This document shows, piece after piece, positions 1 to 42,161 of a DNA stretch of 42,161 nucleotides. The translations under genes and the position numbers were made by a program. Each line of letters begins with the position of its first letter. Position 1 is the stretch's first letter. The stretch lies in IMG/VR virus record IMGVR_UViG_3300028895_000298, positions 1 through 42,161 of that record; one strand, given 5' to 3'. The DNA is from a virus. Below the pieces are notes generated by a model. It saw only the letters and a list, made by a program, of their open reading frames with translations. It ran no database searches and was not told where the DNA came from.

Positions 1-144
1 GCCCTGATCATCAACCGCGAACTCACTAACACCGAGATGGCCCAGGTATGCGCCGCCCTCCAGTCCTACCGGCACCCCAAGATGACCTCGGCCCAGGCGC
101 AGGGGTCGTATGGGGTGGAGTTGGTGTCCAATGGGGATCTGGAG
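1..144. repeat. Exact terminal direct repeat, left copy
   Basis: These 144 bases are identical to 42018-42161. The repeat lies inside one open reading frame, and reading continues in frame from 42017 into base 1, so joining the ends restores a single gene. This shows a circular or circularly permuted molecule of about 42,017 bp. It could be an assembly overlap or real terminal redundancy, and the sequence alone cannot separate the two. Confidence 0.97.
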
Positions 145-1167: not shown

Positions 1168-1598
1168 CCACAGCCGAAGCCGCCGCAGACGTTGGAACCG
1201 CGACCCTGATTTTCTCTCTGGTCGTCGCCGGGATTATCATCTTTATCCTCGGTTCCCTGGTGTGGTGGTTTCTTCGTGACCGAATCCAGCAGACCCACGC
1301 CAGGCTCAACGCTGGCAACCAGAAGTTCGAGAAGCAGGACCACGAGATCGAAGCGGTCAAGGAATCCATGCAGGCGAATGTGCAGGCCGTCCATCAAAAC
1401 TACATCCACCGGGACGTCTGCAAGGATCACCGGGACGCCTTCGGTAAAGCTTTCGAAAAGCAGGAGCAGTCCTTGGCGAAGATCGCCGAGTCGCAGGCGT
1501 GCAACGACAAGAAGCTGACGGCGGTGCAGTCTGAAGTATCCACGGGATTCAAGACCTTGACTCGGCTGGTTGCTCAGTCCAGGGAGGAGACCACATGA
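1164..1598 (+). CDS. Small membrane-anchored coiled-coil protein
   Basis: The start is ATG 1164, which overlaps the stop of the LamG gene (ATGA) and has AGGGGTGAT just upstream. The 144-residue product has one strong transmembrane helix at about residues 15-38 (LIFSLVVAGIIIFILGSLVW) and then a long charged helical region rich in Q, K and E that looks like a coiled coil (about 45-140). The topology resembles phage membrane proteins of the holin-accessory or i-spanin kind, but it lies far from the lysis genes and directly after four genes for exported proteins. I do not recognise a family. Membrane location is well supported; function is unknown. Confidence 0.75.
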   Translation: MTTAEAAADVGTATLIFSLVVAGIIIFILGSLVWWFLRDRIQQTHARLNAGNQKFEKQDHEIEAVKESMQANVQAVHQNYIHRDVCKDHRDAFGKAFEKQEQSLAKIAESQACNDKKLTAVQSEVSTGFKTLTRLVAQSREETT

Positions 1599-2839
1599 TC
1601 AAGGGCGCCCCGCAGGTTGTCGAGTTCGAGGCCGCCGCCTCGCCGTTGCGCTACATCACCACCGACGCCGACGGCCGGCAACGCAAGCCCGATGCCCTAC
1701 CGACCATCGAGATCCTTGACGCCGACGGGGAGCAACTCCTGGCCCCGGCCACGGTTGCGGCTGACTTCGACTTCGACGTTGACGGGGGCTTGACCAACCT
1801 CGACACCATCATTGAAGCCACGAGCCCGGGCACCTGGGCCAACGCCTGGACCGTGCAAGTTGCCGCCGCGGTCGCCGCAGGCATCACCATCGACCGGACC
1901 AATAAGACGATCCTGATCGAGTTCATCACCACGGTCACCACGGTCACCGACATTGAGACCCTGATCGGGGCCCTGGTCGGCGAGGAGGCTGTGATCGAGG
2001 TGGGCACCGCCGGCACCGGGGCAAACGTCCTGACCACCGCCGGGGACACCATGGCGGCAACCGCGCTGGCCGGCGGCGTAGGTCTGGCCATGGAGGCAAA
2101 GATCGCCAAGACAGAGGGCTTCCTGGACTACGACACTCAAACCGCCGAGTATGGCCTTGGCGAAGTGGCGACAGGTGCAGCCGGGGCAACCGGGCGCATC
2201 GTGGGCGACGACCGGGACGGCACATCCGGGACGCTTCGCTTGTCCAACGTGGATGGCACCTACGTTGACGGCGAGGCCCTGACCGACTCCGACAGCGGAT
2301 CCGGGAAGGTCAACGGCGTCCTCTGGTCGGCCGAGCACGTCTACTGGTTGGATGCCTCGGATGATGACACCTATCCGATTGCCCAAGGCTACCGGGCCGA
2401 GATCGTTTACGAGATCGACGGCATCCGATACGAACGCCAGATCTGGTTCGATGTCTCCTGGTATCCCATGGCCTACCCGCTGGTATCCACTCAGGACGTT
2501 GACGAGGAGCACCCGACCTGGATCGCCCGGCGGCCCTCCGAGTGGAAAGACTGGACCCCGGCCATCAAGTCAGGGCACGCCAACCTGGTCCGGCGGATTC
2601 ATGCCATGGAGGAGCAAGCAAGCGACTTCGTCAAGCGTGAGTCTGAGATGTGGCGCTTGACCATGGCATTTGTCGAGGAGCGGATCGCTATCAGTTGTGG
2701 ATTCCCGAAAGAGGAAAAGGACGAATGGAAGGCGAACCGCGAAGCCGTTTGGCGGACCAAGGGTTACTTGACCAAGAGTGCCGAGGACGACGGCGAGGAC
2801 GCCGAAGTAACCTCACTGGGCGCTGAGTTCGAGAGGTAG
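1595..2839 (+). CDS. Phage structural protein (neck or baseplate-like), unknown
   Basis: 414 residues; ATG 1595 overlaps the preceding stop and has GGGAGGAG upstream. The N-terminal third is rich in beta-prone A, T, D and V. A central segment (TGRIVGDD, then GTLRLSNVDGTYVDGEALT, about residues 208-240) resembles a short repeat seen in many tailed-phage virion proteins, where a Gly-rich turn is followed by 'GE.L.'. The C-terminal 130 residues are helical and charged and end in an acidic tail. It sits between the exported cassette and the tail terminator-like gene, so a head-tail connector, neck or appendage role fits. No catalytic motif is visible. Assignment as a virion protein rests on position and composition. 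Confidence 0.6.
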   Translation: MIKGAPQVVEFEAAASPLRYITTDADGRQRKPDALPTIEILDADGEQLLAPATVAADFDFDVDGGLTNLDTIIEATSPGTWANAWTVQVAAAVAAGITIDRTNKTILIEFITTVTTVTDIETLIGALVGEEAVIEVGTAGTGANVLTTAGDTMAATALAGGVGLAMEAKIAKTEGFLDYDTQTAEYGLGEVATGAAGATGRIVGDDRDGTSGTLRLSNVDGTYVDGEALTDSDSGSGKVNGVLWSAEHVYWLDASDDDTYPIAQGYRAEIVYEIDGIRYERQIWFDVSWYPMAYPLVSTQDVDEEHPTWIARRPSEWKDWTPAIKSGHANLVRRIHAMEEQASDFVKRESEMWRLTMAFVEERIAISCGFPKEEKDEWKANREAVWRTKGYLTKSAEDDGEDAEVTSLGAEFER

Positions 2840-2842
2840 AAC

Positions 2843-3307
2843 GTGGCCGCAACCACTATCAGCGCGATGTACACGAACCTCCGAAAGCTCATCAAGGGCT
2901 TGGAGCCGGACGGCGCGGCCCTGGGCGGTGAAGCCAAGTACAAGCGCGCCGCTGAAAAGCACTCATGGGACGAGCCCCCCCGGTCGGCGTCTGATTGGGA
3001 TCGACGGTTCACGGTTCACGACTTGGCCCGGGGCACCCCGCTCAACTTCGGATCGCCTGACGAGTACGATTACGATGGGACGTTCCGAGTCTCCATTGGG
3101 CACGTCATCACGGACAAGGAATCCGAGGGCCAGACACGACGGGACACCGACGCATTTCAGATCGCCGAGGAACTGGAGAAGTCGTCCAACTTCCCTTCGG
3201 GCGTCTCGTTGATCCGATACATGGACAAGACCATTCTGAAGTATTCGCCCGAGCACTGGTTGACAACTCTCGTTTTCGAGATTCATTTTTCCGCGGCTGC
3301 ACCATAA
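2843..3307 (+). CDS. Tail terminator / tail completion-like protein
   Basis: 154 residues with a GTG start at 2843 preceded by GAGAGG. It lies immediately upstream of the major tail protein, where siphoviruses normally carry the tail terminator that caps the tail tube and joins it to the head. The size (about 150) is right for that family. The sequence has alternating strands and helices (FRVSIGHVITDKES, then a helix, then WLTTLVFEIHF), a pattern typical of gpU/TrP1-like folds, but no diagnostic motif can be read by eye. The call is by synteny and length. Confidence 0.55.
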   Translation: MAATTISAMYTNLRKLIKGLEPDGAALGGEAKYKRAAEKHSWDEPPRSASDWDRRFTVHDLARGTPLNFGSPDEYDYDGTFRVSIGHVITDKESEGQTRRDTDAFQIAEELEKSSNFPSGVSLIRYMDKTILKYSPEHWLTTLVFEIHFSAAAP

Positions 3308-3319
3308 AGGAGCCATACA

Positions 3320-4519
3320 ATGGCCGAGCTAAATGTTGTTTTCGATGTCAAGACCGTCGAGTTCAAGGAACAGGTATCCTGGGCGGCCGGCGACCCGGGC
3401 GGGAACTACGAACAGATCCGTTGCTTTGACGCCCAATTCACCCCCGGGCGCAACATGATCACGCCGCCTTACCAAAAATCGGTTGGCATGCTCGGCGCTG
3501 TCCCGGCGATCCCCGCAGGCAAAACCGGCACCTTGACATTCAAGACCATCCTTCGAGGCGGCAATGCCATCGAGTCTTTGCTTTCGAAGCTCGGCAAAAA
3601 CTGCGGGCTTGCTCGGGCAGCCGGGGCAGCCGGGACCGACACCAAGGCCGGGGGCGATGTCGACACCCTGATCATGGAGACGACCCCGTCACCCTATGCC
3701 GTGGGCCAGGGGATCTTCATCTACACCGACTCGACCTCGTACGGGATCCGGTTCGTATCGCGCAACCAGCCCGACACACCGGCCGGTGATGCGACCTTGG
3801 ACATTCAACCCACGCTACTCACCGCCCCAGTGGTGTCCGATCCGTACTACGACCTGGACACCCTGTATCCGGCTTCGGCTTCGCTGGGCGAGCCAGAGGC
3901 GTACCTGGCGTTCAAGTTCGTGCACGGCTCGGGCACCGACGTGGTTCAATATCTGGCCACCGGATGCGCGGGAACGTTCAAGCTCGTGACCAGCACCGCC
4001 AACACCCTGCCGGTCATCGAGTGGACGTTCATGTGTGACACCTACACCCCGAGCGCGGACGCCCTTGCCCAGGACCCGGATCTCTACGACGACGGGCACC
4101 CGCTGCTGGGCGATCCCTGCTACATCAACGACATCGCCGCCAAGGTTCGGAGCATCGCGTTTGACCCGGCGCTCGAACTGGTGCCCGACGAATGCACCGA
4201 GGGGACCGACGGCCGACAAGGTTGGCTATATGTCAACGCCGGCCCGCCTGTCCTCGAGGTCGAACTCAAGCACGACCTGGACTGGTACACCAGGCGAGAC
4301 GCAGGAACCGAGGTGCAGTTCACCTTCGAGAGCATCAAGGACACGAATGAAGCGTGGGCGCTGCACATTCCCAAGCTCCAGATCCTCGACCCACAGCCGC
4401 AGGAAATCAACAAGCACCTCGGCCTCAAGCCGACGTTTCAGATCAACGACCCCGGGAAATCGACCGAAGGCGACCAAATCCCCATGTGGTCCTTGGCCGT
4501 CACCGGATCGGGAACGTAA
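3320..4519 (+). CDS. Major tail protein (tail tube)
   Basis: 399 residues; ATG 3320 with AAAGGAG upstream. It lies directly before the frameshifting chaperone gene and the tape measure, the classic position of the tail tube protein. The sequence is rich in beta strands with many Gly, Thr, Asp and Pro turns and has no membrane segment. At nearly 400 residues it is longer than a minimal tube subunit (about 200-250), so an added surface domain is likely, possibly the C-terminal third after about residue 280 (VPDECTEGTDG, VEVELKHDLDWY). Function is inferred from synteny. An alternative is a fused tube and decoration protein. Confidence 0.75.
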   Translation: MAELNVVFDVKTVEFKEQVSWAAGDPGGNYEQIRCFDAQFTPGRNMITPPYQKSVGMLGAVPAIPAGKTGTLTFKTILRGGNAIESLLSKLGKNCGLARAAGAAGTDTKAGGDVDTLIMETTPSPYAVGQGIFIYTDSTSYGIRFVSRNQPDTPAGDATLDIQPTLLTAPVVSDPYYDLDTLYPASASLGEPEAYLAFKFVHGSGTDVVQYLATGCAGTFKLVTSTANTLPVIEWTFMCDTYTPSADALAQDPDLYDDGHPLLGDPCYINDIAAKVRSIAFDPALELVPDECTEGTDGRQGWLYVNAGPPVLEVELKHDLDWYTRRDAGTEVQFTFESIKDTNEAWALHIPKLQILDPQPQEINKHLGLKPTFQINDPGKSTEGDQIPMWSLAVTGSGT

Positions 4520-4545
4520 ACCACTAATTGAGAAAGGGAGCCCGC

Positions 4546-5157
4546 ATGCTTACCTCTAACCCGCATGAAACAGAAGAACTGGATTTACTCGAACTGCGCC
4601 TGAAGACCACGGCGCTCAATGCTGAGTACGCGATCAAGCAGATGAACGAAAACCTTGAAGTTGTACCCGATCCCGAGGATATGAAGCTTGCCCACGAAGC
4701 CCTGGAGGCCGCCAAGGTCGCCATGGGCAACCACGTCAAGGACGAAGGCACGCCGATGGCCCTGGTTGGGTTCATTCCCACCCGGAAGCTAACCTATCTT
4801 CGCCACCGCTACGGCATTCTGCACCGTGAGGAGTTCGACCTCGCAACGGCCACGCTTGAGGAGCGCGAGGAGTTCGACGAGATCGCCAGGCTCTATCTGC
4901 GCTGGGGCATCAAGGGGCATTCCAACCTCGGTGTTGACTTCGAGCACGAAGAGGAGATGTGTGGCCCTCGCAAAGTGCGCGTTGCTTCCTGGGAGATGGT
5001 CGACGTCTACGAGGGCCTCGGCCTTTTGTATCTGATGTACTCCAGAGTCAGGGAGTACAACACGCTTGCCGAGGTAAAAAAAAAGGAATCTTTGCTCAAT
5101 GCTGGCATCATCCCAGCGAGTTCAACTGCGACATCTGCCGACAAAAGCCAGAGCTAA
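4546..5157 (+). CDS. Tail assembly chaperone, short (G-like) product
   Basis: The chosen start is ATG 4546 with GAAAGGGAG upstream; an upstream TTG at 4528 is in frame but lies in the ribosome-site region. The 203-residue product is helical and acidic. It lies between the major tail protein and the tape measure, like lambda gpG, whose translation slips into gpT to give gpG-T. The run A9 at 5076-5084 contains a -1 slippery heptamer and the downstream frame is open to 5459, so this is the unshifted product. Such chaperones bind the tape measure and recruit tail tube subunits; they are not in the finished virion. Confidence 0.85.
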   Translation: MLTSNPHETEELDLLELRLKTTALNAEYAIKQMNENLEVVPDPEDMKLAHEALEAAKVAMGNHVKDEGTPMALVGFIPTRKLTYLRHRYGILHREEFDLATATLEEREEFDEIARLYLRWGIKGHSNLGVDFEHEEEMCGPRKVRVASWEMVDVYEGLGLLYLMYSRVREYNTLAEVKKKESLLNAGIIPASSTATSADKSQS

Positions 5158-5459
5158 AAAAGGACAACGGATGCACCGGCCCCTCAGAATATCCTTACCT
5201 GTATCCACCGTCCGATGCGGTGGACGCGGCCGGTCATCCCTTGCAGGATGCGGAGCGGGTCGAGATCAATACCTGCCCCGTCAATCTCATCACGCCCGAC
5301 CTGGTCGAGTTCTTCCGGGCGGTCAACCTTGCAGAAGGGAAAATCAGCATCGCCGAACAAGACTGGTTGCCGTATCCATTCATTCAGGCCGTGTCAATTT
5401 ACCTGAGTCAAAGCCGGCTGGCGTCGGCTGATCAAATGAAGAGGAGTCGCAGTGGTTGA
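4546..5459 (+). CDS. Tail assembly chaperone, -1 frameshift (GT-like) fusion product
   Basis: Reading starts at 4546, proceeds to the AAG codon at 5083-5085, slips back one base and continues with GGA at 5085 to the stop ending at 5459. The fusion is about 304 residues (180 from the first frame, 124 from the second). The downstream frame has no good start of its own but reads as ordinary protein (CPVNLITPDLVEFFRAVNLA, WLPYPFIQAVSIYL), and its stop overlaps the GTG start of the tape measure by 8 bases. This is the arrangement of lambda-type tail chaperones, in which a small fraction of ribosomes makes the fusion that contacts the tail tube subunits. Confidence 0.85.
5079..5085 (+). promoter_or_regulatory. 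Programmed -1 ribosomal frameshift site A AAA AAG
   Basis: In the frame of 4546 the codons here are AAA (5080-5082) and AAG (5083-5085), preceded by A. This is the same heptamer as in Escherichia coli dnaX and fits the X XXY YYZ rule. After a one-base slip both tRNAs re-pair on AAA AAA and reading resumes at 5085. The A run is nine bases long (5076-5084), which could also permit other slips. GAGG at 5071-5074 is very close and may or may not act as a stimulatory anti-SD contact. Confidence 0.85.
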
Positions 5460-6993
5460 TTACGCGGGAAATCTAGGGCGGCAACTTCAGTTGATCGGCT
5501 CCTGGGACGGCAAGCAGCTTGAGCAGGGATACCAGTCAACAGCGGGCAAGATCACTAAGGCCGCTGGAACCATGGCCACAAAAACGTCGGGGCTCGTCAA
5601 TCAAAAGATGGGCCGGGCCATGAGTCAGTTCAATGAAAAAACCGAGAAGGGCAGACAGCTACTCACAACTTTTGGGGGCGCTGTCGGGGGCGCGGCCGGA
5701 AATATTGTATATTATACGGGGACTTTGAGCTATGTCATAGGTCGTTTTTCGGTTTGGGAGTTGGCTATCATGGGCGCCGTTGCCGCCATCGGTGGCCTAG
5801 TCTACGCCCTTACCAGAGAGTCCGAGGCTGAGAAAGAGTGGGCGGCACGGATGGATGCCAGCCGCGAGGCGCTGGACAAAATGACCACGTCGGTGAACGA
5901 CTTTGTCACCGCACAAAACCAGCAACTCGAAGGCTGGTCACAGGCCGAGGTAAGGCTGGCCAAGGTCGACGAGGAGATGGATCAGCAGCACCGCAACTAC
6001 ACCCGAGCGATTGCAGATATCAAGAAATGGAAAGACGAAGCGCCCGCCATCGACGTCCTTGAGGGGCAGTACCCCGCGCATCTAGTGACCGCCTATTATA
6101 AATCACTGCTCGGAATGGGGGCGGCCCTCAAGGCATCAACCAAACTTCATGCCATCGACGCCGCCGTCAAGGAAGCTGCGTTCAAAAAGGAGATGGAGCG
6201 ACAGAAAGACCGCGACAAGAAAGACAAAAAGCCCAAGGTCAAAAAGGACGTTTACGAGGAGTTGACCGGGGCCCCGGGGATCTACGGCATGGCGCCCGAT
6301 GCAATCCGACAAGCCATCGCATTCAACGCTGACGTGATTGCCGCCGAGACGGAATATCAAAGCATCAAACTACTCAAGGACCTCAAGAATAAAGAGGACA
6401 CCGAAAAGCAGGCGATACTTGAAGCTGAATTGGACTGGGAGAGGCGGCGAAGGAAAGCAATCCTCGACATCAGGGAGGAGGAGGCGGACAAAAAGCGCGA
6501 ACTCGACGAGGAGGAAAAGGAGCGCAAAACCGCCATGGGCAAGGTGATGATGGACGGTGTCGCCATCTTCGAGGAAATGGGCGCCTTGATGGCATCCTCG
6601 GAGGAAGCCAACACAGCGGTGCGAGTCGCCGCGATCATGGCCCGGGCTGGGTGGCGGATGTACGAGGAGATCGCCGAGGGCGTCGCAACCAGTGTTACTC
6701 AACCATGGGTTGCCGCTTCGCACTACGCGGCGGCCGGGTTGTTTGCTGCCATTGCAGCCGGCGACGTGGCGGCGGCGATGTCCAGCGGGGGTGGCGGGGG
6801 TGGCGGTGTAATCGCACCAAGCGACCGGGCAGGTATGCAGGGTGCCAGTCCGTGGGACACGGAGAAGCGGGAGACAACGATCATCATTCAACTCGGTGAC
6901 AGGGAGATCAGGCGCGTTGTCTATGACGCATACGAGGGGCACAAGGACGACCTGAACCCCAACCGCAAACGCAAGGTGGTGGGCTATGGCTAA
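5452..6993 (+). CDS. Tape measure protein (short)
   Basis: 513 residues from GTG 5452, with AAGAGGAG upstream. The protein is mostly helical. An N-terminal segment is followed by hydrophobic, Gly-rich stretches (GGAVGGAAGNIVYYTG and WELAIMGAVAAIGGLVYAL, about 80-125), then long charged coiled coils (about 125-370), then an Ala-rich hydrophobic region (about 390-445), a Gly run and a C-terminal tail. Hydrophobic segments in a coiled-coil rod directly after the frameshifting chaperone are the hallmark of tape measure proteins, which set tail length. With the usual 1.5 angstrom per residue the tail would be only about 75-80 nm, which is short for a siphovirus. No peptidoglycan hydrolase domain is seen. 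Confidence 0.85.
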   Translation: MVDYAGNLGRQLQLIGSWDGKQLEQGYQSTAGKITKAAGTMATKTSGLVNQKMGRAMSQFNEKTEKGRQLLTTFGGAVGGAAGNIVYYTGTLSYVIGRFSVWELAIMGAVAAIGGLVYALTRESEAEKEWAARMDASREALDKMTTSVNDFVTAQNQQLEGWSQAEVRLAKVDEEMDQQHRNYTRAIADIKKWKDEAPAIDVLEGQYPAHLVTAYYKSLLGMGAALKASTKLHAIDAAVKEAAFKKEMERQKDRDKKDKKPKVKKDVYEELTGAPGIYGMAPDAIRQAIAFNADVIAAETEYQSIKLLKDLKNKEDTEKQAILEAELDWERRRRKAILDIREEEADKKRELDEEEKERKTAMGKVMMDGVAIFEEMGALMASSEEANTAVRVAAIMARAGWRMYEEIAEGVATSVTQPWVAASHYAAAGLFAAIAAGDVAAAMSSGGGGGGGVIAPSDRAGMQGASPWDTEKRETTIIIQLGDREIRRVVYDAYEGHKDDLNPNRKRKVVGYG

Positions 6994-7759
6994 CGAAAAG
7001 CCGTGCTTGCAGGCGCAGATCACAATCGATTCAACAAACAAATGGCTTGACGTAGACTCAAGCGAGAACGGTGTGTTTGCCGTGGACGTCGCCGAGGGAA
7101 CTTACGACGACATACACGCTTTGCTGGTAGCCATTGACAATGCCCTTGAAAACGTGATCGAGGTGGAAGACTTCACGGTCACCGTTTCCGACGAGGGGAT
7201 CGTCACGATTACCTGCACGTCCGGGGATACGATCAAGATCCTTGGCGAGACCGGAACCCATGGACTGAACAACGACGACGACCATATCAACCACATAATC
7301 GGTCACGACGATGTTGACGACGTGTCCTACGCAGCATCACAAGCTGGCGGCTACCAGCACATGTACGGATGGTACCCGGACAAGTGGCCGGCGAGCTTTG
7401 GCCCCTGGAATCCAAAGGCGATAGGCGGCGAGCAACGCGATACGCTCTCGGGTTCGAACTCAAAGAAGCTTCACGCCGCCTTTCATCATTTCTATGACGT
7501 GGAGTATACCCGCCTGCCTCCGGAGTACGTCTACAGCGCAGAGGCCACCGGGTCTGATCTCAATAAGGATCTTGAGCATGTATGGGAGCAACTCGCGCAG
7601 AGCAAGGTGGGGCGCTGGTTTGAGGATGCTTCCGATTCCGGGACCTACACTGAAATTTACCTGAAGAGCCCATTTGACTGGACCGGCGTTGTCACCAGGC
7701 CACATCGAGACTACAAGGCCTACAACATCAAGATGCGATTCAGAGAAAAGGAACCTTGA
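6986..7759 (+). CDS. Minor tail protein, distal-tail-like
   Basis: 257 residues; ATG 6986 lies within the end of the tape measure gene (8-base overlap). The N-terminal half carries beta strands (FTVTVSDEGIVTITCTSGDT, about residues 63-82). A His/Asp-rich turn follows at about 95-112 (NNDDDHINHIIGHDDVDD), which could bind a divalent metal. Many aromatic residues lie in the second half. In siphoviruses the gene after the tape measure is the distal tail protein, which begins the tail tip. No motif proves this here, so the role is inferred from gene order. Confidence 0.55.
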   Translation: MANEKPCLQAQITIDSTNKWLDVDSSENGVFAVDVAEGTYDDIHALLVAIDNALENVIEVEDFTVTVSDEGIVTITCTSGDTIKILGETGTHGLNNDDDHINHIIGHDDVDDVSYAASQAGGYQHMYGWYPDKWPASFGPWNPKAIGGEQRDTLSGSNSKKLHAAFHHFYDVEYTRLPPEYVYSAEATGSDLNKDLEHVWEQLAQSKVGRWFEDASDSGTYTEIYLKSPFDWTGVVTRPHRDYKAYNIKMRFREKEP

Positions 7760-10212
7760 TGGCAACTGCGGACTTTCTTACAGCGACGAGCCGAGATGAT
7801 ATCCTTGCGCACCGCTACATTGAGATCGAAGGCATCCGGGTGCGCTATGGTGACCTTGCGCCGTCATGGAATCCAGCCGACTCGGGAACCAATCGACCGA
7901 TCAAGGAATACTTTACCGAGCATCCACGCATTACAGGGCAGGTAGCACAGCCGCTGAATGGTTCGACCACTCCCCATAAGTTCTCGGTATCAATCCTAGA
8001 TGTAGCCGAGGAGATCACGGCCCTGTTTTCCGTCGCCGATACAGACAACCCAACGACGACCGTAACCGATGCTGGCGGCATAGCGATCGGTGAGACGGCG
8101 GTTGATGTGGCCGACGCTTCAGAGATCGCTATCAACGATGATATCTACATCGACCGCGAGACTATGCGCGTTACCAACATCGTCGGGAATACCTTGACGG
8201 TTACCCGAGGCATGTACGGATCGGAAGAGGTCGAGCACCTCTTGGTTGACGACCAGGACAACGCGCGATCGCTCATCGTCTACACGGCCCCGCCATTTCT
8301 CTACACCAGAGAGGTTGTACTTTGCGAGGGCCGAACCGATCTGCTTGAGGCGGATGTGATCAAATTCCGGGGCTACCTGGAATCCGCCGACGAATCGAAC
8401 GGCGTCTATACCCTGAACTGCGCTGGGTATCTGCGTCGGTTGAATTGCATGATATGTGAATCACTGGCCCATCTGCCTCTGAATTTCCCATTATGGGACG
8501 AGGGCTTGGTTGTTTGGGAGCCTGACGAAGATGGTTTTTCAACTGGTATCACTGCGACCACATGGGCAATCCAGTTACCTGTGGGCGCGGACCACTTCCA
8601 GAGCAATGGGCATGTTCTTATTGACGAGGAGATTATTAAATACGAATCGGTTGACCTGGAGGGAGGGGGATTAGCCGGCTCCGATCAGCTTTACCTTTCT
8701 TCAGACACGACATTCAATCCAGGCAACATTGTTGCCGCTGCAGCCAACCGGGGATTGTTTGCAGAAGAAATCCTTGGCTCCCGGGGGGTGAGGACTCGGC
8801 GAACAAACCAAGGCTCGGCGACAAGTAACGATTGGTATGAATATCAAGTGTCCATATGGTGCGCCCGTCACGAGCAGGGGTCGATTGTTCAGGAGATCTT
8901 CCACTCGCAGCGAATCAAGGACGAGCTTTCCCTTTCCGACTCGGAGCCGCTCAAGGCGTCCGATATCATCTTGACGCTTCTGCTTTCGCAGGAGGGTGAT
9001 GATGTGAACGATGCAACCTATGATAAGCTACCCCCCGGATGGGGGGCAGGGATCCCGTCGGCCAAGGTAGACAAAACCGAGATCATCAACGTTTGTGCTC
9101 ACCCGTCTATTGACGAGGTTGACTTTCACCCGTTCGCGATCACCGAGGCTGTTGACTGCAAGGAGTGGCTTGAGGAAAACGTCTTGCGCCCGTGTCATCT
9201 GTTCTTTGTCGAGAACGATGAAGGCAAAATATCGGTCGCTCGTCTTTACAGCAAGAACGAGGCGATTGAACTGACAACGCCTACGGCGTTGACTGAAGAT
9301 GACTTGCTGGCAATCCCAAGATTCAAACCAGGGCAAGCCCCGCTGGGCGAGTTCTCCTTCGATGTCAACTGGCACCCGGGCCGAGACGAGTTCCTCGGCA
9401 AGGTCAACGTAATTTTGGCAGATGGTCGGGCGCATTACATGGGAACCGCTCGGAAGTTCGACCTTGAGTGTAAGACGGTTTACGACTCCCGGATCGGAAT
9501 GGGCCGTGGTAATTGGCTGTCTGGAGAGATTGGGGACGCGCCCAACCTGCTGGCCAACTACCTGGAGGTCATCTGGAAAAACTTTGCCCTCGTGCCGTGC
9601 CCGGTCGTCTCGTTCCCGGTGAGCTATGCCATGCATGCGAAGGTCCAGGTTGGAAAGGTTGTCACTTTGACATCGAGCCAAACCCCTGACGTGAAGAACA
9701 GTGACCGGGGGATCTCAGCGGAATACTTCCAGGTGGTTGAGTCCCACCCGGACCCCGAGCAGTCCTGTGTCAACTTGGTGTGCTGGATGATTGGAATCAA
9801 CGACGCGGATACCCGGCTACTTGCACCGGCAGCCAAAGTGAAAGCCTACGACGCGGGCCCGCCCGTGACGGTTACCCTGTACGACACCACGTTTACGGAC
9901 GGGGTCAAATACACCTACGATATTGACGCCTTTGCTACGGCCGATGATGTCATGTTTGTGGACTCTGCTTATGACGGGCTGGGCGGTGGAGCGCCAGAGC
10001 ACGCGGCAATCAGTGCGATCAATGCCAGCGGCGGGGCTGACGATGGATCGATTGAATTTGCAGCAGCGCCCCCGAATCCCCCGGGCGATGGTGACTATGT
10101 AGTGACCGGCAACTACGCCAACTCCCAAGCATCGCAAAAAGCCAAGTGGGCATACCTCGCCGATACAACCCCCGACCTGAACACCGACGCTCCCCACAAA
10201 TACGACAGGTGA
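7759..10212 (+). CDS. Large minor tail protein (tail hub / tip)
   Basis: 817 residues from ATG 7759, which overlaps the preceding stop (TGATG); an in-frame TTG at 7756 is less likely. Position after the distal-tail-like gene and size fit the tail hub or tail-associated protein at the tail tip. A compact beta module occurs at about residues 108-162 (GETAVDVADASEI, IYIDRETMRV, TLTVTRGMYGS), with a second related strand set near 280 (HVLIDEEIIKYESVD). The same module pattern is inserted in the major capsid protein of this phage (35624). C-terminal residues about 690-817 form another beta-rich domain. No lysozyme or peptidase motif was seen. Confidence 0.65.
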   Translation: MATADFLTATSRDDILAHRYIEIEGIRVRYGDLAPSWNPADSGTNRPIKEYFTEHPRITGQVAQPLNGSTTPHKFSVSILDVAEEITALFSVADTDNPTTTVTDAGGIAIGETAVDVADASEIAINDDIYIDRETMRVTNIVGNTLTVTRGMYGSEEVEHLLVDDQDNARSLIVYTAPPFLYTREVVLCEGRTDLLEADVIKFRGYLESADESNGVYTLNCAGYLRRLNCMICESLAHLPLNFPLWDEGLVVWEPDEDGFSTGITATTWAIQLPVGADHFQSNGHVLIDEEIIKYESVDLEGGGLAGSDQLYLSSDTTFNPGNIVAAAANRGLFAEEILGSRGVRTRRTNQGSATSNDWYEYQVSIWCARHEQGSIVQEIFHSQRIKDELSLSDSEPLKASDIILTLLLSQEGDDVNDATYDKLPPGWGAGIPSAKVDKTEIINVCAHPSIDEVDFHPFAITEAVDCKEWLEENVLRPCHLFFVENDEGKISVARLYSKNEAIELTTPTALTEDDLLAIPRFKPGQAPLGEFSFDVNWHPGRDEFLGKVNVILADGRAHYMGTARKFDLECKTVYDSRIGMGRGNWLSGEIGDAPNLLANYLEVIWKNFALVPCPVVSFPVSYAMHAKVQVGKVVTLTSSQTPDVKNSDRGISAEYFQVVESHPDPEQSCVNLVCWMIGINDADTRLLAPAAKVKAYDAGPPVTVTLYDTTFTDGVKYTYDIDAFATADDVMFVDSAYDGLGGGAPEHAAISAINASGGADDGSIEFAAAPPNPPGDGDYVVTGNYANSQASQKAKWAYLADTTPDLNTDAPHKYDR

Positions 10213-10216
10213 CGCG

Positions 10217-11947
10217 ATGGGTAACCGCAAGTGGAAATTCTACGCCGAGCCCGGACTCAATGCGATCAAGCTCGGTAAGTTCGCAAGCTCGGCATACGCA
10301 TCGAAGCTGGCGCGGGCGACCAATGCGAACTATGCTCAGTGTAGGCGGAACGTTTTGTGCTTTACCACCAACGTTGATAGCAACCTGATTGTACCAGCCC
10401 CCTACATTGCAGGGGAGTGGAGCCATTGGCTAAAGGTTCCCATCGGTCCCCGGATCTCGGTGCCCGGCACGCTGAAGGTCTGGATCTTTGCGTCTACCCC
10501 GGGCAGCGAAGCGGCCGGAAACAACATCCATTGCCAGGTCAAGATCGGGCAGGACTACGCACAGGGAACACTGACCCTCGACGCATCGGTTCCCGCTGAT
10601 CCCCAGTGGACCAGCTTTACGGTCAACCTGACCGGCTACGGTTACGATGGTGCTGCACGAGACATGGAGATCGGCTTTCGCACCATCGGGTCAAACACCC
10701 TGACGATCTATTCCGTCTCTGCGTACATGGTGGGCGACAGCAATGCCCCGGCCTTTGTTGATGTGTCGAGTGGTTGGCTCGGCACAAATTACGGCCCGGA
10801 TGATGTTTTTGCAATGAAGTTGCTACGGGACAATGTTGTGTCGGTGCGCGGGTGGAAGGTTCCCAAGGCCAACGTTTTCAATCACTGGTACTACAAGGGG
10901 TCAAAGGCATCCACCGCGTATTATTCGGACAGCGCAGGACTGACCAACCGGGAGTTGGGTTGCTACAAGTTCATCAAGCGCAAGGGGATCTCCGAACTGA
11001 AGATGCACTTCATGGCGGCAAGAGATGGAGCGGCCACATCGAAAATCAGGACGGAAATCTCTGGCCTGGACAACGCCCCAGCAGAGGGAGTGGACCAGGA
11101 GACGGCAATCACAACAGCGGCCAGCGGGGCGCCCGGTTGGTACACGGTCACCTGGACCATTGACGCGGATGACGTTGACGATGAGTTTGAATGCGAATTG
11201 TTAATTGACGGCAAGGACTCTGGCACCAACGCGATCTACATGGCCGGGTTTTCGCTGGTTGAGTCTGGGCCGTCTGCAAGCCACGCCCACACGTGCCCCG
11301 ATGTCAAAGACGTTGAACTAAACGACAGCATCGAGGCCACCCATCACGAGGAAATCTGGGACACCCTGCACCACCTGTATTACTACGGGGGGAGGCAGAT
11401 CCTTTGCGCCGACTGGTATCACCACGACTACACGAGCGGGGTGTATTCTTCCCAGATGGCATGTACCCAGTCATCCTTTGACAAGCGGAGTTGGTACGGG
11501 TGGGGCGTTGCTCCGTCTGTGATAGCCAGGGCGATCCTGTTTTCGTCGACTGCGAGCAAGCGGCTGTCCTGTCGCATGGGCTACCACACAACCGCCGAAC
11601 ACAGAAACGGTCCCTATACAAAGACAATCCACCTGTGCACCACTGAGACGATTGACAACGCGCACTGTACGCACATTGATGGTAACCCCCAGTTTGAAGG
11701 GGACGACGACAACGACTACGCGTTTACGCGCGCGGTTGACGGCGCGGATGGCAATCCGATCAATGCCATCATCGGTTGCTTTTTCGACATCCGGGCGGCA
11801 GATCAAGAGGAACATTACGATGGAGTCAACGAGCCCCCACAGGTATGCCTACAGGCGATTACCGCAGCAACCAGCAGTGAGGAGTATGTGATCCCCGACT
11901 GGATATCAGTCGAGGAATGGCCCTTGTCAGAAAGTGAATTCCCCTGA
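10217..11947 (+). CDS. Tail-tip or receptor-binding protein candidate
   Basis: 576 residues; ATG 10217 preceded by AGGTGA. The sequence suggests beta-sandwich domains (AGEWSHWLKVPIGPRISVPG; GTLKVWIFASTPGS; FTVNLTGYGYDG, about 60-150), a pattern common in carbohydrate-binding modules. A second beta-rich domain lies at about 230-350 and a Cys-, His- and Trp-rich C-terminal domain after about 370. It is the last gene before lysis, a usual place for the receptor-binding or tail-fibre gene. Its stop overlaps the region of the amidase start. Glycan binding is inferred from fold-like pattern only. Confidence 0.55.
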   Translation: MGNRKWKFYAEPGLNAIKLGKFASSAYASKLARATNANYAQCRRNVLCFTTNVDSNLIVPAPYIAGEWSHWLKVPIGPRISVPGTLKVWIFASTPGSEAAGNNIHCQVKIGQDYAQGTLTLDASVPADPQWTSFTVNLTGYGYDGAARDMEIGFRTIGSNTLTIYSVSAYMVGDSNAPAFVDVSSGWLGTNYGPDDVFAMKLLRDNVVSVRGWKVPKANVFNHWYYKGSKASTAYYSDSAGLTNRELGCYKFIKRKGISELKMHFMAARDGAATSKIRTEISGLDNAPAEGVDQETAITTAASGAPGWYTVTWTIDADDVDDEFECELLIDGKDSGTNAIYMAGFSLVESGPSASHAHTCPDVKDVELNDSIEATHHEEIWDTLHHLYYYGGRQILCADWYHHDYTSGVYSSQMACTQSSFDKRSWYGWGVAPSVIARAILFSSTASKRLSCRMGYHTTAEHRNGPYTKTIHLCTTETIDNAHCTHIDGNPQFEGDDDNDYAFTRAVDGADGNPINAIIGCFFDIRAADQEEHYDGVNEPPQVCLQAITAATSSEEYVIPDWISVEEWPLSESEFP

Positions 11948-35623: not shown

Positions 35624-36757
35624 ATGGCAACCCCCGTCGAAGGAATGTATTATTCAGATCTCCCGGTCGACAAGGTAGAGTCAATCACCGACGACCTGAA
35701 GGAAACCGTCCCCAGTCAGGTACCCTTTCTGAACGCAACCGGTTTCTTTGGCAGCAGCGAAAAGCCGAAGAACACCATTCACTATTACTATGACGACGCG
35801 TACGTGCCCCTGCGTACCACCCTGTCAGCGCAGCTTACCGCCGCGGCCACCGCCGTCACCTTCACCGACGACATATTCAAGTCCGGTCAGCGCATCGAGA
35901 TCGGCGGCGAGGTCATCGTGCTGGGAGCGAAGACCGGCGCCGGCGCGTTCGACATTACCACCCGCAGCCTGGGAACCCCGGCCGCCGCGTTGCATGCCAA
36001 CCTGACCCCGGCCTTGCTGGTTGGTCGCCGAGAGGACGAAGGCGGCGCAGCCGGTGCCGCGGACGTCTCGATGGAGCCCCGGACTGTCACCACCTATCCG
36101 CAGGAATTCGAACGAGTGGTTGACGTCTCCGACGTGATGCAGGCCTTGCCCCGCCACGCTCGCCCGGGCGCCCCCTTCGACGAGAAGGCCGCCTTGATGC
36201 GCCGGGACATGATCATCGAGATCGAAAACGCCGGGATGTGGGGCGTTGCCATGGCCTTTGCACCGCCCGCCGGCGGCGCATTCGACGGCCTGATGGAACG
36301 CGTACTTGGCACCAACACCACCGCGATGGGCGGGGTCGATTTCAACATGGCCAGCCTCCGAGACGCGGTCGAGGACATCGCCGACTTCTACGATCCGGAC
36401 ATGGACGAGAACGCCGTCCTCCAATGCCCGGTTCGCCAGTCCTTCATCTTCAACGACTGGGAACAGGCCCACGTCGTCGTCGACCAGGGCGATCCCCTGG
36501 TCCAGACCTACGGCATCCGGGTCCGTCGGCTGCGCATCGGCCCCATGCTGATCGACGTGATCCCCATGACCCGGATGCACAACTACGCCGCCATGTACCA
36601 GCCGAAATACATTCGCTGGTTGCACCTGATCGCGCCGTACTTCAAAAAGCTGGCCGACGAGGGCCGGAACATGCGCGGCATCATGTCGTACTGCGGCCTT
36701 CCGGAAATCTACTGTCCGGAGGCTCATTACACGTTCAGCGGATTGCAGACCGCGTAG
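35624..36757 (+). CDS. Major capsid protein (DUF5309 / SU10-like)
   Basis: 377 residues from ATG 35624 with CAGGAGGCTAAGCT upstream. The opening with SDLPVDKVESITDDLKETVP and FLNATGFF is a start I recognise from DUF5309-type major capsid proteins, and the ending with IMSYCGLPEIYCPEAHYTFS fits too. The HK97-like core has helices around FDEKAALMRRDMIIEIENAG (about 186-205). An inserted beta module at about 68-132 (TAVTFTDDIF, IEIGGEVIVL, ITTRSLGTP) probably projects from the shell. The same module type appears in the tail protein 7759. The gene is enclosed by strong hairpins, fitting very high expression. Confidence 0.85.
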   Translation: MATPVEGMYYSDLPVDKVESITDDLKETVPSQVPFLNATGFFGSSEKPKNTIHYYYDDAYVPLRTTLSAQLTAAATAVTFTDDIFKSGQRIEIGGEVIVLGAKTGAGAFDITTRSLGTPAAALHANLTPALLVGRREDEGGAAGAADVSMEPRTVTTYPQEFERVVDVSDVMQALPRHARPGAPFDEKAALMRRDMIIEIENAGMWGVAMAFAPPAGGAFDGLMERVLGTNTTAMGGVDFNMASLRDAVEDIADFYDPDMDENAVLQCPVRQSFIFNDWEQAHVVVDQGDPLVQTYGIRVRRLRIGPMLIDVIPMTRMHNYAAMYQPKYIRWLHLIAPYFKKLADEGRNMRGIMSYCGLPEIYCPEAHYTFSGLQTA

Positions 36758-37550: not shown

Positions 37551-38036
37551 ATGACCGATAAGAAAGAGCCAGTTTTCGTAACCTGCCCGCCGTCCATGAA
37601 CAAGTACCGGATCCCGTCGTTCGGCGTGATTTTCGGCGCCGGCGAGAACCCGATCCGCAATCCGAACCTGATGAAATTCATGCTTCTGCACCCCATGAAG
37701 TCGGCAGCCCTCGACCCGATGGAGTGCATCGCTAAGGGTTACCTATCCCGCGAAGAGGTCGCCGAGCTTGGTTACGCAGTCCCGGCCGTCAACGCCGACG
37801 GGTCAGCGAAGCTTGACGAGGACGGCAAGCCGGTCAACGTCAACGTGCCCCTGAACACCGACATTGAGATTCCCGAGCACGTCCCGGACTTCGGCAAGAT
37901 GACAGTCCCCGAACTCAAGGACTGGGCCGATGACGATCGCCATCCGGTGAAGTACGGAAAGAAACCCAGCAAGGAATCCCTGGTCAGGGCATGCCAGGCC
38001 AAAGTCCGCCAGATGCAAAAGGCCGACGAGGAGTAA
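37551..38036 (+). CDS. Small head-region protein, unknown
   Basis: 161 residues; ATG 37551 with CTGGAGGCTTACC upstream. The N-terminal part has VFVTCPPSMNKYRIPSFGVI and then a helix-prone segment. The middle is acidic and the C-terminal 50 residues (MTVPELKDWADDDRHPVKYG, then KKPSKESLVRACQAKVRQMQ) look like a small SAP/HeH-type helix-extended-loop-helix, which often binds nucleic acids or head components. Such small proteins follow the capsid gene in many siphoviruses. It is the last gene before the exported cassette. Function unknown. Confidence 0.55.
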   Translation: MTDKKEPVFVTCPPSMNKYRIPSFGVIFGAGENPIRNPNLMKFMLLHPMKSAALDPMECIAKGYLSREEVAELGYAVPAVNADGSAKLDEDGKPVNVNVPLNTDIEIPEHVPDFGKMTVPELKDWADDDRHPVKYGKKPSKESLVRACQAKVRQMQKADEE

Positions 38037-38039
38037 GCC

Positions 38040-39170
38040 ATGAGAAAGCTCAAGCTCTTGGCTCTGGTGCTGTGCTTACTGGTGCCAGGGCTTTTGCTCG
38101 CCGCCGATACCATGTGGCAGGGCGCCGACAACACGCCAAACAACAAGCAAGGCAACGTCGGTTATGAGTTCGGCCACTGCTACGACGGCACCGCCTGGGA
38201 TATGGTCCGATGTGTCGCCGGCGTTCTGTCAATGGCCATCACAAGCCCGCTTGGATCTCAGGCCGAGGCTACCTCGGTGGCCACCGCGCCCCCGACCGAT
38301 GCTTACTACATGGTATCGAGGGACACGCTTGCCAATGCCGTGGACAACCCCATTGCGGTTCAACTATCCCAGGACGGGACAAACGCAGTTGACGCAACGC
38401 ATCCGATCCCGATCTCGGCCGACCTTGCGGCGAACGCAACCGGCAATCGGATCTGGGTCACCTCTGATATGGATATGGTTGCCAGCACTGCCACCAACGT
38501 CAACGGAGGGAACCGAGACGCGGGAACGCAGACGGTTACCCTTGCCGATGACGATCCGGCCGTGGCATCGCTCGGCATCATGGACGATTGGGACGCAACC
38601 CACGACAGCGCCGTGGTTGCCGATGGCCCGCAGATTATGGGCGAAGCTCACTCGGCCCAGCCGGCAGCCGTTGCCGATGGTGACGCGGCTCGACCGGCCC
38701 TGACCGTCTATGGCTACAGCATCACAGCGGGGTATGTGTGGGCGACGAACGCCAACCGCACGCAAGAGGTGGACCCCATCTCTTCCCATCATTCCGAGGT
38801 CACCCTGTGCAGCCTTACTAACGTAGCGGCGAACACCTCCGGGACCTGTGGATACTGGGACATGGACGGATACTCTACGTTTTCGGTTCATTGCATTGCA
38901 GACACGGCCCCGACCGACACCATGACCTACAACGTCGAGTGTTCCGGGGAAGACAACGGAACGGCCCCAGCATCTTGCACATACATAGACATCACAACCA
39001 GCTTGAACGAGATGAACGACAACGATCACAACGGTTCTTATGTGGACGAAGAAACCATCCTGATACCTGAGTTCGCCGTCCCGTTCAAATACTGCAAGGT
39101 AGATTACGTCACCTCGGACACGGGCGGTGGTGACGCCGATCTCGAATGCTTCGTCAAGAAGATGTACTAG
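38040..39170 (+). CDS. Exported (signal-peptide) protein, unknown
   Basis: 376 residues; ATG 38040 with GAGGAGTAAGCC upstream. A clear Sec signal peptide starts it (MRKLKLLALVLCLLVPGLLL), with cleavage likely after A21 or A22 (LLAAD). The mature part is Ala-, Thr- and Asp-rich with predicted beta strands and, near the end, several Cys (C at about 261, 270, 284) that could form disulfides in the periplasm or outside. There is no membrane helix after the signal. A signal peptide on a gene in the late structural region is unusual for a tailed phage. Function unknown. Confidence 0.8.
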   Translation: MRKLKLLALVLCLLVPGLLLAADTMWQGADNTPNNKQGNVGYEFGHCYDGTAWDMVRCVAGVLSMAITSPLGSQAEATSVATAPPTDAYYMVSRDTLANAVDNPIAVQLSQDGTNAVDATHPIPISADLAANATGNRIWVTSDMDMVASTATNVNGGNRDAGTQTVTLADDDPAVASLGIMDDWDATHDSAVVADGPQIMGEAHSAQPAAVADGDAARPALTVYGYSITAGYVWATNANRTQEVDPISSHHSEVTLCSLTNVAANTSGTCGYWDMDGYSTFSVHCIADTAPTDTMTYNVECSGEDNGTAPASCTYIDITTSLNEMNDNDHNGSYVDEETILIPEFAVPFKYCKVDYVTSDTGGGDADLECFVKKMY

Positions 39171-39178
39171 GAGACGCC

Positions 39179-39526
39179 ATGAAAAAGGTAATTGTCGGAG
39201 CACTGGCAGGGGTTGCCCTGGTGGGGATCGCAGTGGTTGCACAGGGAGCAAAGGACGACGCGTCCACTATTGCGAGTGTAGTAGACATCATGACCGCCGA
39301 AGAGTTGACGGGACCACCAAAGCCGAATCCGGTAAACGGACCCGCCGAACTGACCAAGGAACAGGTTGAGCGGATTGTTGAAGAACTGAAAGACCCGGCA
39401 GCGAACGGCGGGATCGTCAAGATCGCGTTCCGTAACGAAGCCAGCCCGGGTCAGGTGCGGTTGATACAGCGAAAGATCAAAAAGCGGCTTCAGGAGCTTG
39501 CACCCCCGGTTGACTTGAACCCATAG
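39179..39526 (+). CDS. Small exported protein, unknown
   Basis: 115 residues from ATG 39179 with TAGGAGACGCC upstream. The N-terminus is a signal peptide or membrane anchor (MKKVIVGALAGVALVGIAVV, with AQGA cleavage site near 24). The mature part is short and helical (ELTKEQVERIVEELKDPAAN, then RLIQRKIKKRLQELAP). It lies between two other exported proteins and may be their partner. Function unknown. Confidence 0.7.
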   Translation: MKKVIVGALAGVALVGIAVVAQGAKDDASTIASVVDIMTAEELTGPPKPNPVNGPAELTKEQVERIVEELKDPAANGGIVKIAFRNEASPGQVRLIQRKIKKRLQELAPPVDLNP

Positions 39527-39537
39527 GAGGCGGCGCA

Positions 39538-41424
39538 ATGCGTTTTCGCACTCTCATCACCACGATCCTGATCGCGCTGTTTGCGTCCAGCGCCCAGGCC
39601 GACAGGCTGGTCCAGAACACAACGCCGGCTGAGCGCGCGCGCGGGTGCGTCTTCTCGGAGGATTTCCGCAGTGAGGCCGAGGTTGAAGCGAATGGGTGCT
39701 CGGCGATCGCGGGAACCCCTGACTTCTCTCCGGTCACCGGGGTTACCATTCAGCCCTTGGTTGACGAGTTGGTTTACGACATCAACCCGAGCTTGTTCTT
39801 GGCCGATCCGATTTCGATCCGCATCGACTTCACGCCCGCCGAGAACTACGACACCGACGCGATCCGGTATCTCTTTGACACTCCAGGCACGACCGCCCAC
39901 GTCTTGAAAACCAACGACGCCGGCAATCATGGCCTAGAGATCCGGATCGGCGGAAGTATGAACGCTGTCATTGCCGAGGGGGTCTACGGTCCCTATTGGC
40001 TGGCCAATCAGCGCAACGTCCTGGTAATCAGCGCGACCGATGGTGCAAGTAAAGCCTGGCTCAACGGCACCGAAATCATGGATGACGCGACGGCATGGGA
40101 GGCGGATGTTGAAACGAGTCTCATGTTTGGAATCAACTTCTCGGATGCGTATTCCTACAACGGGGAGTTGAGCAAGTTTCAGATCTACCATTCGCTTCTG
40201 ACCGCCGAAGAGGCCCAGGACTTCTACGACCACTCGACCTATCAGTGGGAGAATCAGGCAACCGCTCACTATCAGATGCGTCTCGAAGACCACGACGCGA
40301 CCGACGTGGAGTTGACCACGCAGGGCAACGCCAACCCCCTGCTGGGCACTATTGGCACCATGGAATCCTGGCAAGGCACTGCCGTGGGATCCTGCACCGA
40401 CTGCCCGACCGGGTTGACCTGTGATTGTTCGCTTGGCGGCGACGTGAACCCCAGCGCGGTGCAGACATACAACGGGTCCACCTCGGCTGCGCTCGACCCG
40501 GGCGGTATTTTTTACTCGATATTCTACATGGTCCACACGCTGGAGGCCGGAAAGGCGTATCAAGTCAGCCTGTACTACTACGGGGCGGACGGGACCGAGG
40601 ACGCTACTTTGCTGGCAGGGAATACGACCCTGACCGAGACATACAACTTTGCAACGGACGCTTGGACCGCGCCGTCAACGGGCTTGACAATCACCGACGC
40701 ACCCGCCGCTTGGACTCGGCTGGACGCAACGATCATCACCGGGGCCACCACTAAAACAGGTTACGCCGTCGGGGTTGCGATGACCAGCGGCAACGGGTCG
40801 GCGCTCTATGTCGACGGGATGGAGATCCGGGAACTCACGAACCCGCTGGAGTTGGTACACGCGCCGGCCAAGCAAACGAGCCATGGTTACGACTTCGATG
40901 GGGCGAATGACTACCTGACCGGGGCCATCGAGACAAGCGTGTTCAATAATGTTCCGCTGTCGGCCGTTGTCGAGTTTACCCCACATTTTGAGTGCGATGA
41001 TCCCGGCGACCAGTGGATCTTCAACGCCTCGGACGGTTTCGGCTCGGCCAGTGCCGAGTTCAAGTTCTACCACTACGGAACCAGCAACCGCTTTGATGTA
41101 ACTTGGTCCGAGACATACATCGGAAACACAACGGAGGCAACAGTTTGTCCGCACTGGCGTACCAATCAGCGGAATGTGCTGATCATATCGTCAACGTCCG
41201 GCGACACGGACGTGTATCTCAACGGCGCGCTCATAATGGATTCAGACAACACCGCATGGTCGGCGGCGGCCGACACTGACAACCTTGTGCTTGCAGCGGA
41301 AAACGACGGCGGCAACAAGTTCGACGGTGTGATCCATTCGTTCGTGGTTGTGCCGCTTCTTTTCACCGAGCTTCAAGCCCTCGACATCGACCACACCATA
41401 CGGGCGAGAGGTAACGACCAATGA
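39538..41424 (+). CDS. Exported LamG - carbohydrate-binding - LamG protein
   Basis: 628 residues; ATG 39538 with CATAGGAGGCGGCGCA upstream. Signal peptide MRFRTLITTILIALFASSAQ, then A, with cleavage after AQA (21). A LamG-like domain spans about 75-235 (NQRNVLVISATDG, WLNGTEIMDD, GELSKFQIYHSLLTAEE). A jelly-roll domain spans about 270-430 (GKAYQVSLYYYGADG, YVDGMEIRELTNP). A second LamG-like domain spans about 445-628 (NQRNVLIISSTSG, YLNGALIMDS, GVIHSFVVVPLLFTE). The two LamG domains are clearly related copies. Cys pairs in the middle (CTDCPTGLTCDC) may be disulfides. Such domains bind sugars, so host-surface or virion-surface recognition is plausible. Confidence 0.85.
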   Translation: MRFRTLITTILIALFASSAQADRLVQNTTPAERARGCVFSEDFRSEAEVEANGCSAIAGTPDFSPVTGVTIQPLVDELVYDINPSLFLADPISIRIDFTPAENYDTDAIRYLFDTPGTTAHVLKTNDAGNHGLEIRIGGSMNAVIAEGVYGPYWLANQRNVLVISATDGASKAWLNGTEIMDDATAWEADVETSLMFGINFSDAYSYNGELSKFQIYHSLLTAEEAQDFYDHSTYQWENQATAHYQMRLEDHDATDVELTTQGNANPLLGTIGTMESWQGTAVGSCTDCPTGLTCDCSLGGDVNPSAVQTYNGSTSAALDPGGIFYSIFYMVHTLEAGKAYQVSLYYYGADGTEDATLLAGNTTLTETYNFATDAWTAPSTGLTITDAPAAWTRLDATIITGATTKTGYAVGVAMTSGNGSALYVDGMEIRELTNPLELVHAPAKQTSHGYDFDGANDYLTGAIETSVFNNVPLSAVVEFTPHFECDDPGDQWIFNASDGFGSASAEFKFYHYGTSNRFDVTWSETYIGNTTEATVCPHWRTNQRNVLIISSTSGDTDVYLNGALIMDSDNTAWSAAADTDNLVLAAENDGGNKFDGVIHSFVVVPLLFTELQALDIDHTIRARGNDQ

Positions 41425-42161
41425 AAAAGCTACTTGTTGCCCTGCTGGTTCTGTGGTCCTCGTTCGCCCATGCAGACGCGCTGGACGATCTGCTTTCAGA
41501 AAGTGTGGTCAAGTTGTATCACGACTACCGCGCGGGGCACCTCCAGGACCTCTCGGGGAATGCGAATCACGGGACGGGGACGGACATTGCTTGGACGGGG
41601 GACGGGGTTGGCTTCCCGGCGTCAACCAGCATGATCACGGTTGCGGATTCTGCAGAATTGCGGTTGACCGAGGGGTCCCTGGTTGTCTACAGCAAGTCAG
41701 GGTTCCAGTCTCAGACCGACGACGAAGGGCTGTTTTGCAAATACGACGCGGGCGGGACCAACTATTTTTCCTACCTGTACTCAACGCCACGGGTCTATTT
41801 CAACGACGGGGCAAACGGGCGGCGGGTAAACACAGACGTTACTGGCCACAACTGCATTGGGATCAACTTCAAAAGCGGTGAGGCGTGCGAGGGCTTCACA
41901 GACGGAGTTTCTGTTGGCGCTTTCAACGATACCAACACGGTCACCGCTGACGACGCTGACCTGATTATCGGCAACAACTACCTTGGGGCGATGCAGCTAA
42001 AATCCGCTCTCAGCGCCGCCCTGATCATCAACCGCGAACTCACTAACACCGAGATGGCCCAGGTATGCGCCGCCCTCCAGTCCTACCGGCACCCCAAGAT
42101 GACCTCGGCCCAGGCGCAGGGGTCGTATGGGGTGGAGTTGGTGTCCAATGGGGATCTGGAG
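41421..42161 (+). CDS. Exported LamG / carbohydrate-binding protein, 5' part of a gene split by the window edge
   Basis: The start is ATG 41421, overlapping the previous stop and preceded by AGAGGTAACGACC. Signal peptide MKKLLVALLVLWSSFAHA, with cleavage after AHA (18). A LamG-like domain follows (about 28-215: VVKLYHDYRAGHLQDLSGNA, VVYSKSGFQSQTDD, VSVGAFNDTNT). At the window end reading continues in frame into base 145 after circular joining (equivalent to 1-1167), giving about 587 residues in all. The domain order repeats that of the gene before it, suggesting duplication. Confidence 0.85.
   Translation, partial: MKKLLVALLVLWSSFAHADALDDLLSESVVKLYHDYRAGHLQDLSGNANHGTGTDIAWTGDGVGFPASTSMITVADSAELRLTEGSLVVYSKSGFQSQTDDEGLFCKYDAGGTNYFSYLYSTPRVYFNDGANGRRVNTDVTGHNCIGINFKSGEACEGFTDGVSVGAFNDTNTVTADDADLIIGNNYLGAMQLKSALSAALIINRELTNTEMAQVCAALQSYRHPKMTSAQAQGSYGVELVSNGDLE
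42018..42161. repeat. Exact terminal direct repeat, right copy
   Basis: Identical to bases 1-144. See the left copy. Removing one copy gives a unit genome of 42,017 bp and a continuous LamG gene. Confidence 0.97.

Follow-up and report, generated by a model that had tools for sequence, protein, structure and literature searches.

A late gene cassette with Sec signal peptides in a siphovirus genome and its signal-less counterpart in an unrelated phage

Introduction

The virus record IMGVR_UViG_3300028895_000298 with a length of 42,161 bases, referred to as the window, is the genome of a siphovirus. Four consecutive late genes located between its capsid and tail genes, starting at 38040, 39179, 39538 and 41421 (SP1 to SP4), encode proteins with N-terminal signal peptides. 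An initial annotation of this DNA had claimed that a set of glycan-binding proteins is thereby sent through the host inner membrane. The question arises whether these signals are genuine and whether export belongs to the cassette itself or to one phage lineage. Here it is shown that the signals are conserved in a close relative, that a co-linear version of the cassette without signals exists in a second phage and that no other gene is common to the window and this phage.

Results

All four genes are encoded on the + strand, and their open reading frames are present at the given starts, each with a purine run upstream which resembles a ribosome binding site. SP1 (38040..39170, 376 amino acids) begins with MRKLKLLALVLCLLVPGLLLA followed by AD, SP2 (39179..39526, 115 amino acids) with MKKVIVGALAGVALVGIAVVAQG followed by AKDD and SP3 (39538..41424, 628 amino acids) with MRFRTLITTILIALFASSAQA followed by D. 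SP4 begins with MKKLLVALLVLWSSFAHA followed by D. Its first part extends from 41421 to 42161, its second part is found at 1..1167. The window carries an exact 144-bp repeat at its ends (1-144 = 42018-42161), leaving 42,017 unique bases. Therefore, the genome is circular or circularly permuted, and gene 41421 does not stop at the window edge; it continues via the 144-bp overlap into 145-1167 and encodes 587 amino acids. The join is supported by the homology of SP4 to a protein of the distant relative L004, described below, on both of its sides.

N-termini were scored by a cleavage-site matrix of our own, derived from 30 E. coli signal peptides, in combination with charge and hydrophobicity rules and not by SignalP. 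Scores of 14.8 (SP1), 8.8 (SP2), 10.1 (SP3) and 8.9 (SP4) were obtained, with predicted cleavage after A21, G23, A21 and A18, respectively. The sites LLA/AD, AQG/A, AQA/D and AHA/D named in the initial annotation are the same as those predicted by the matrix. All four N-termini show the features of Sec signals cleaved by signal peptidase I: a basic n-region, a hydrophobic core and small residues at -3 and -1. The hydrophobicity of the h-region was 2.8-3.5 (Kyte-Doolittle) and the charge +2 to +3. A lipobox with cysteine at +1 was absent at all four cleavage sites. None of the 43 other window genes scored above 3.2, and the gene reaching this value looks like a spanin lipoprotein. Thus, the signal peptides on the four proteins were confirmed, with scores of 8.8-14.8 against at most 3.2 elsewhere. 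When the true signal peptides were left out one at a time, a few of them fell to scores down to -1.4; hence, the score is conservative. The chance of four positives being adjacent among 48 genes on a circle is 2.5e-4, which rules out chance clustering of the signals. Among the 172 genes of the control phages lambda, T1, N15 and M6, the score together with a hydrophobicity cut selected only lambda lom, the M6 Rz spanin and the M6 endolysin. A run of four signal genes was not seen in these controls, whose positives were isolated or lysis genes.

Inspection of related phages for the same block, as proposed with the initial annotation, led to the close relative L002, a contig of 7.6 kb with the same gene order and a capsid protein 84% identical to that of the window. 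It ends within the homologue of 39538, so that the comparison covers SP1 to SP3 and stops short of 41421. The block is kept in L002 and all three homologues retain their signal peptides. SP1 is 60% identical to L002:4644-5882 and SP2 42% identical to its homologue; the homologue of SP3 opens with MRRALALVLVLLCGGAQA followed by D. For SP1 the identity was 14/21 in the signal and 49/60 in the mature N-terminus, for SP3 8/18 and 25/39, respectively. Despite this divergence the signal segments of the window and L002 are equally hydrophobic. The signals drift and yet stay hydrophobic, and the mature N-termini are closer to each other; thus, the feature and not the sequence seems to be under selection. 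This would be the pattern expected of functional signal peptides. Furthermore, an extra gene without window counterpart is located between the first two homologues (L002:5886-6914). It encodes 342 amino acids with the signal peptide MTRIITIILALLLALPVGA followed by AQ (score 10.5). L002 and the contig L003 originate from one metagenome, and their gene order suggests that they are neighbouring parts of a single genome related to that of the window phage.

The distant relative L004, part of a 27.8-kb contig, was found by a profile search with 39538. A gpA-type terminase, a lambda-type portal, an S49 protease and capsid protein E are encoded on the contig, and gene order and sequence suggest a contractile-tailed phage (myovirus). 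The cassette is located between portal and head protease with the gene order of the window. L004:4902-5966 shares a C-terminal domain with 38040 (35% identity over the C-terminal 84 amino acids of SP1, E value 1.5e-7) and is followed by the cassette gene L004:5966-6502. The small gene L004:6508-6807 takes the place of 39179 and has a short LT[KR]EQ[VI]ER[IV]V match. L004:6804-8102 is the homologue of 39538 (34-36% identical) and L004:8077-10083 that of 41421 (31-39%, E value 1.5e-21), with 39% identity between its end and the C-terminal domain encoded by the second part of SP4. Comparing 48 window proteins with the whole L004 contig by tblastn, only 38040, 39538 and 41421 gave matches. On these comparisons, the cassette has moved between a siphovirus and a putatively contractile-tailed phage.

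None of the cassette genes of L004 encodes a signal peptide. In-frame stops are located shortly upstream of them, which excludes a missed upstream start or signal. The SP3 homologue of L004 begins with M-SRLPLNTTAAERARGCVF (GTG start); in the window, cleavage after SSAQA is followed by DRLVQNTTPAERARGCVF. For the SP4 homologue the likely start is MIDLLNE (ATG, 8095), two residues past the predicted AHA/D site. Both starts fall at most three residues from the predicted cleavage points of the window, which they would mark independently of any predictor. Homologues lacking the hydrophobic N-terminus had been named in the initial annotation as evidence against export; they were looked for and found in L004. 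Thus, passage through the inner membrane is a property of the lineage and not of the cassette. It is likely for the window lineage, considering the conserved signals also found in L002, but it does not extend to the cassette as a whole. At ~25196-26936 of the L004 record (L006, in L004 orientation), three similar consecutive genes of 190-207 amino acids are located at the tail end; they are probably duplicated fibre or adhesin genes.

LamG or carbohydrate-binding domains, proposed earlier for the block, were found in 39538 and 41421 and were not found in 38040 or 39179. SP3 has two LamG (concanavalin-like) domains, with a Laminin_G_3 match of 1.9e-11 and 44.8 bits against a curated cut-off of 27.6. 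The LamG-like domain of SP4 reached just 18.2 bits; with L004:6804 and L004:8077, 67.6 and 90.3 bits were obtained. For SP1 no match to Pfam or PHROG was detected. Behind its signal peptide, SP2 consists of a small charged domain. The AlphaFold model of SP1 was unusable with a predicted local distance difference test (pLDDT) of 31, and that of SP3 (pLDDT 46) was confident in patches only. Foldseek searches with this low-confidence SP3 model gave matches to laminin LG domains, CBM40 lectins and many phage concanavalin-like proteins. Together with Pfam this model supports a LamG fold in SP3. Jelly-roll matches to sialidases and clostridial binding domains were also considered as a sign of toxin kinship; they reflect the common concanavalin-like fold. 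From these domains we infer that the set binds extracellular glycans. Between the LamG domains of SP3 a cysteine-rich insert is present (residues 286-297, CTDCPTGLTCDC), which the L004 homologue does not have. The mature proteins SP1, SP2, SP3 and SP4 contain 9, 0, 8 and 5 cysteines. A need for disulphides as the reason for export is not supported by these counts for each member.

The SP4 stop is overlapped by four bases by the start of gene 1164 (1164..1598, + strand, 144 amino acids), which was described earlier as a membrane-anchored fifth member. The anchor itself held: one N-terminal transmembrane helix precedes a coiled-coil-like remainder, with a signal score of -0.9 and no cleavage site. 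The N-terminal end is acidic and the flank after the helix basic. An N-out topology is predicted, in which the long part would face the cytosol by the positive-inside rule. Weak matches to Rz-spanin and holin-like PHROGs (4e-4 to 1e-3) were detected. No counterpart exists in the L004 cassette; hence, 1164 is probably not a member of the set.

On the 5' side of the block the major capsid protein is encoded at 35624..36757 (+ strand; SU10_MCP Pfam match, 3.2e-11; 84% to L002). Two late genes without signal peptides, 36868-37470 and 37551-38036 (+ strand), lie between it and the cassette and are conserved in L002. The tail block follows on the 3' side (1595..11947, + strand) with genes 1595, 2843, 3320, 4546, 5452 (tape measure), 6986, 7762 and 10217, all without signal peptides. 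After the amidase (11946) and holin-like (12550) genes a candidate one-protein spanin is located at 13348-13770, whose N-terminus resembles that of a lipoprotein (TATAISC) and whose C-terminus carries a membrane helix. From this sequence and established knowledge of such lipoprotein and transmembrane spanins, gene 13348 points to a Gram-negative host. The terminase is encoded at 29404. A single tRNA-His gene was found upstream of the terminase genes (28274-28345), and by inspection of the sequence two genes resemble DNA methyltransferases (23191-24048, cytosine type; 26116-27462, with a DPPAG-type motif).

Searches for further relatives were made in several collections. In 50,697 phage records searched by tblastn, none of SP1, SP3, SP4, L002:5886, L002:4644, L004:4902 and the capsid and portal proteins had a relative. 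TerL gave matches of ~25% only in the phage records, and the search with L004:8077 gave weak LamG matches only. When viral contigs were scanned using TerL and tail protein 3320 as queries, no match was obtained; two scans of genome contigs also gave no relative. A description of a comparable cassette with signal peptides was not found in the literature collection that was searched.

Discussion

We favour the reading that the genes form a mobile late lectin- or adhesin-like cassette, which in the window lineage bears Sec signals on all members and works as an appendage exported via Sec. A probability of roughly 0.45 is assigned to it. The SP proteins would be made late, threaded through SecYEG, cleaved and accumulated in the periplasm of a Gram-negative host. 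The cassette proteins may form one complex, which would explain a joint gain or loss of export by the whole set. The job common to both versions would be the binding of extracellular glycans, either as an appendage on the virion or released with it. In L004 the appendage would be assembled in the cytosol and either stay there until lysis or become part of the virion. For the window version, assembly would take place in the oxidising periplasm, and contact with virions or envelope would follow at lysis. In its most specific form this describes a two-compartment appendage: capsid and tail would be made in the cytosol and the lectin complex in the periplasm from proteins exported via Sec and cleaved, both would be joined only at lysis, and a sister version in another phage would be wholly cytosolic. 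This form is unlikely in our view.

Several points weigh against the appendage exported via Sec. With just two lineages, gain of the signals here and their loss in L004 would look alike, so the comparison gives no polarity. Periplasmic proteins would have to join virions made in the cytosol. Odd as well as even cysteine counts occur, and folding that depends on disulphides is not indicated for every member. Furthermore, 39179 and L004:6508 are matched only by position and one short motif (E value 0.04). The N-terminal halves of SP1 and its L004 counterpart differ; thus, this gene did not simply gain or lose a signal.

Exported lectins might instead act on the envelope. By coating host glycans or a receptor they would block superinfection or the loss of progeny to debris, comparable to Cor and Llp, and the L004 copies would be derived or otherwise used. 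Unrelated FhuA phages repeatedly carry Cor and its two membrane-protein neighbours beside their tail genes (PMC13164509), and the window block also recurs in unrelated phages and adjoins tail genes. However, Cor and Llp are small lipoproteins, whereas large soluble LamG proteins without lipobox or outer-membrane anchor are encoded here, and the block encodes no path across the outer membrane. The signal-less L004 homologues could act only after lysis. Hence, masking of the surface before lysis cannot be the function common to both versions, but it may be the function in the window lineage. Altogether, exclusion or masking is a doubtful, though possible, explanation.

It was also considered that the products are ordinary virion proteins synthesised in the cytosol, as those of L004 would be, the hydrophobic N-termini being membrane tethers or assembly tags. 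The genes are located between head and tail modules, a position compatible with neck or head fibres, and the L004 homologues lie inside the head module without signals. In the lambda record the portal protein is labelled with a 'leader'; thus, a leader annotated in a virion protein is no proof of export. What makes this explanation quite unlikely is that each of the four N-termini possesses an n-, an h- and a c-region and carries small residues at -3 and -1, features which are kept in SP1, SP3 and the L002 signals despite divergence. A tether also does not predict start codons in L004 that fall at the cleavage points. This coincidence, with a bare Met (GTG for the SP3 homologue) at the former cleavage point as if a signal had been deleted, would agree with the reverse polarity, an ancestrally secreted surface set which phages like L004 adopted as virion parts via signal loss. 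Adding signals in front would give the same picture, and the N-terminal half of SP1 is unrelated between both phages. We regard such an origin as improbable.

Single exported phage proteins are already known. A co-linear set exported in one phage family and signal-less in an unrelated one would be a natural experiment on a move between compartments. It makes testable whether periplasmic parts take part in the assembly or decoration of tailed phages, or whether the host is coated before lysis. LamG cassettes would also be mobile between siphovirus and myovirus backbones.

Among known systems, a hot spot of the 936 lactococcal phages, which lies between the capsid and the tail genes, contains genes for the neck passage structure and the tail extension, and a carbohydrate-binding domain is predicted for the tail extension protein (PMC4759559). 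They set a precedent for optional appendage genes at such a site. In contrast to the window set, the 936 products were identified as virion parts by immunogold or western blot and the hosts are Gram-positive; a signal peptide is not mentioned in the available part of that paper (PMC4759559). In Porphyromonas gingivalis phages (Nixviridae), several genes of unassigned function are reported to carry host-adapted Sec signals, comparable to the several signal-peptide genes in one phage found here (PMC10367356). Their signals follow the Bacteroidetes Q rule, whereas the residues after cleavage in the window are A, A, D and D, and in the available part of that report no signal-less counterpart cassette is described (PMC10367356).

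The lambda morons Lom and Bor are similar to the SP proteins in carrying a signal peptide on a phage protein near late genes, and lom was picked by the same score. Lom is an outer-membrane beta-barrel and Bor a lipoprotein. Both are single genes, in contrast to the multi-gene set of the window. Cor is an outer-membrane lipoprotein of ~75 amino acids which binds FhuA. The window differs from Cor and Llp by four proteins of the signal peptidase I type with 115-628 amino acids, two of them with LamG domains and none with a lipobox, and by the existence of a signal-less version. Cor and Llp of T1, N15, phi80, HK022 and T5 share with the window genes a location next to tail genes, the export of the products, which is predicted for the window, and a cassette common to unrelated phages (PMC13164509). 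The Cor cassette already shows that sets of exported proteins next to tail genes can be mobile among otherwise unrelated phages (PMC13164509).

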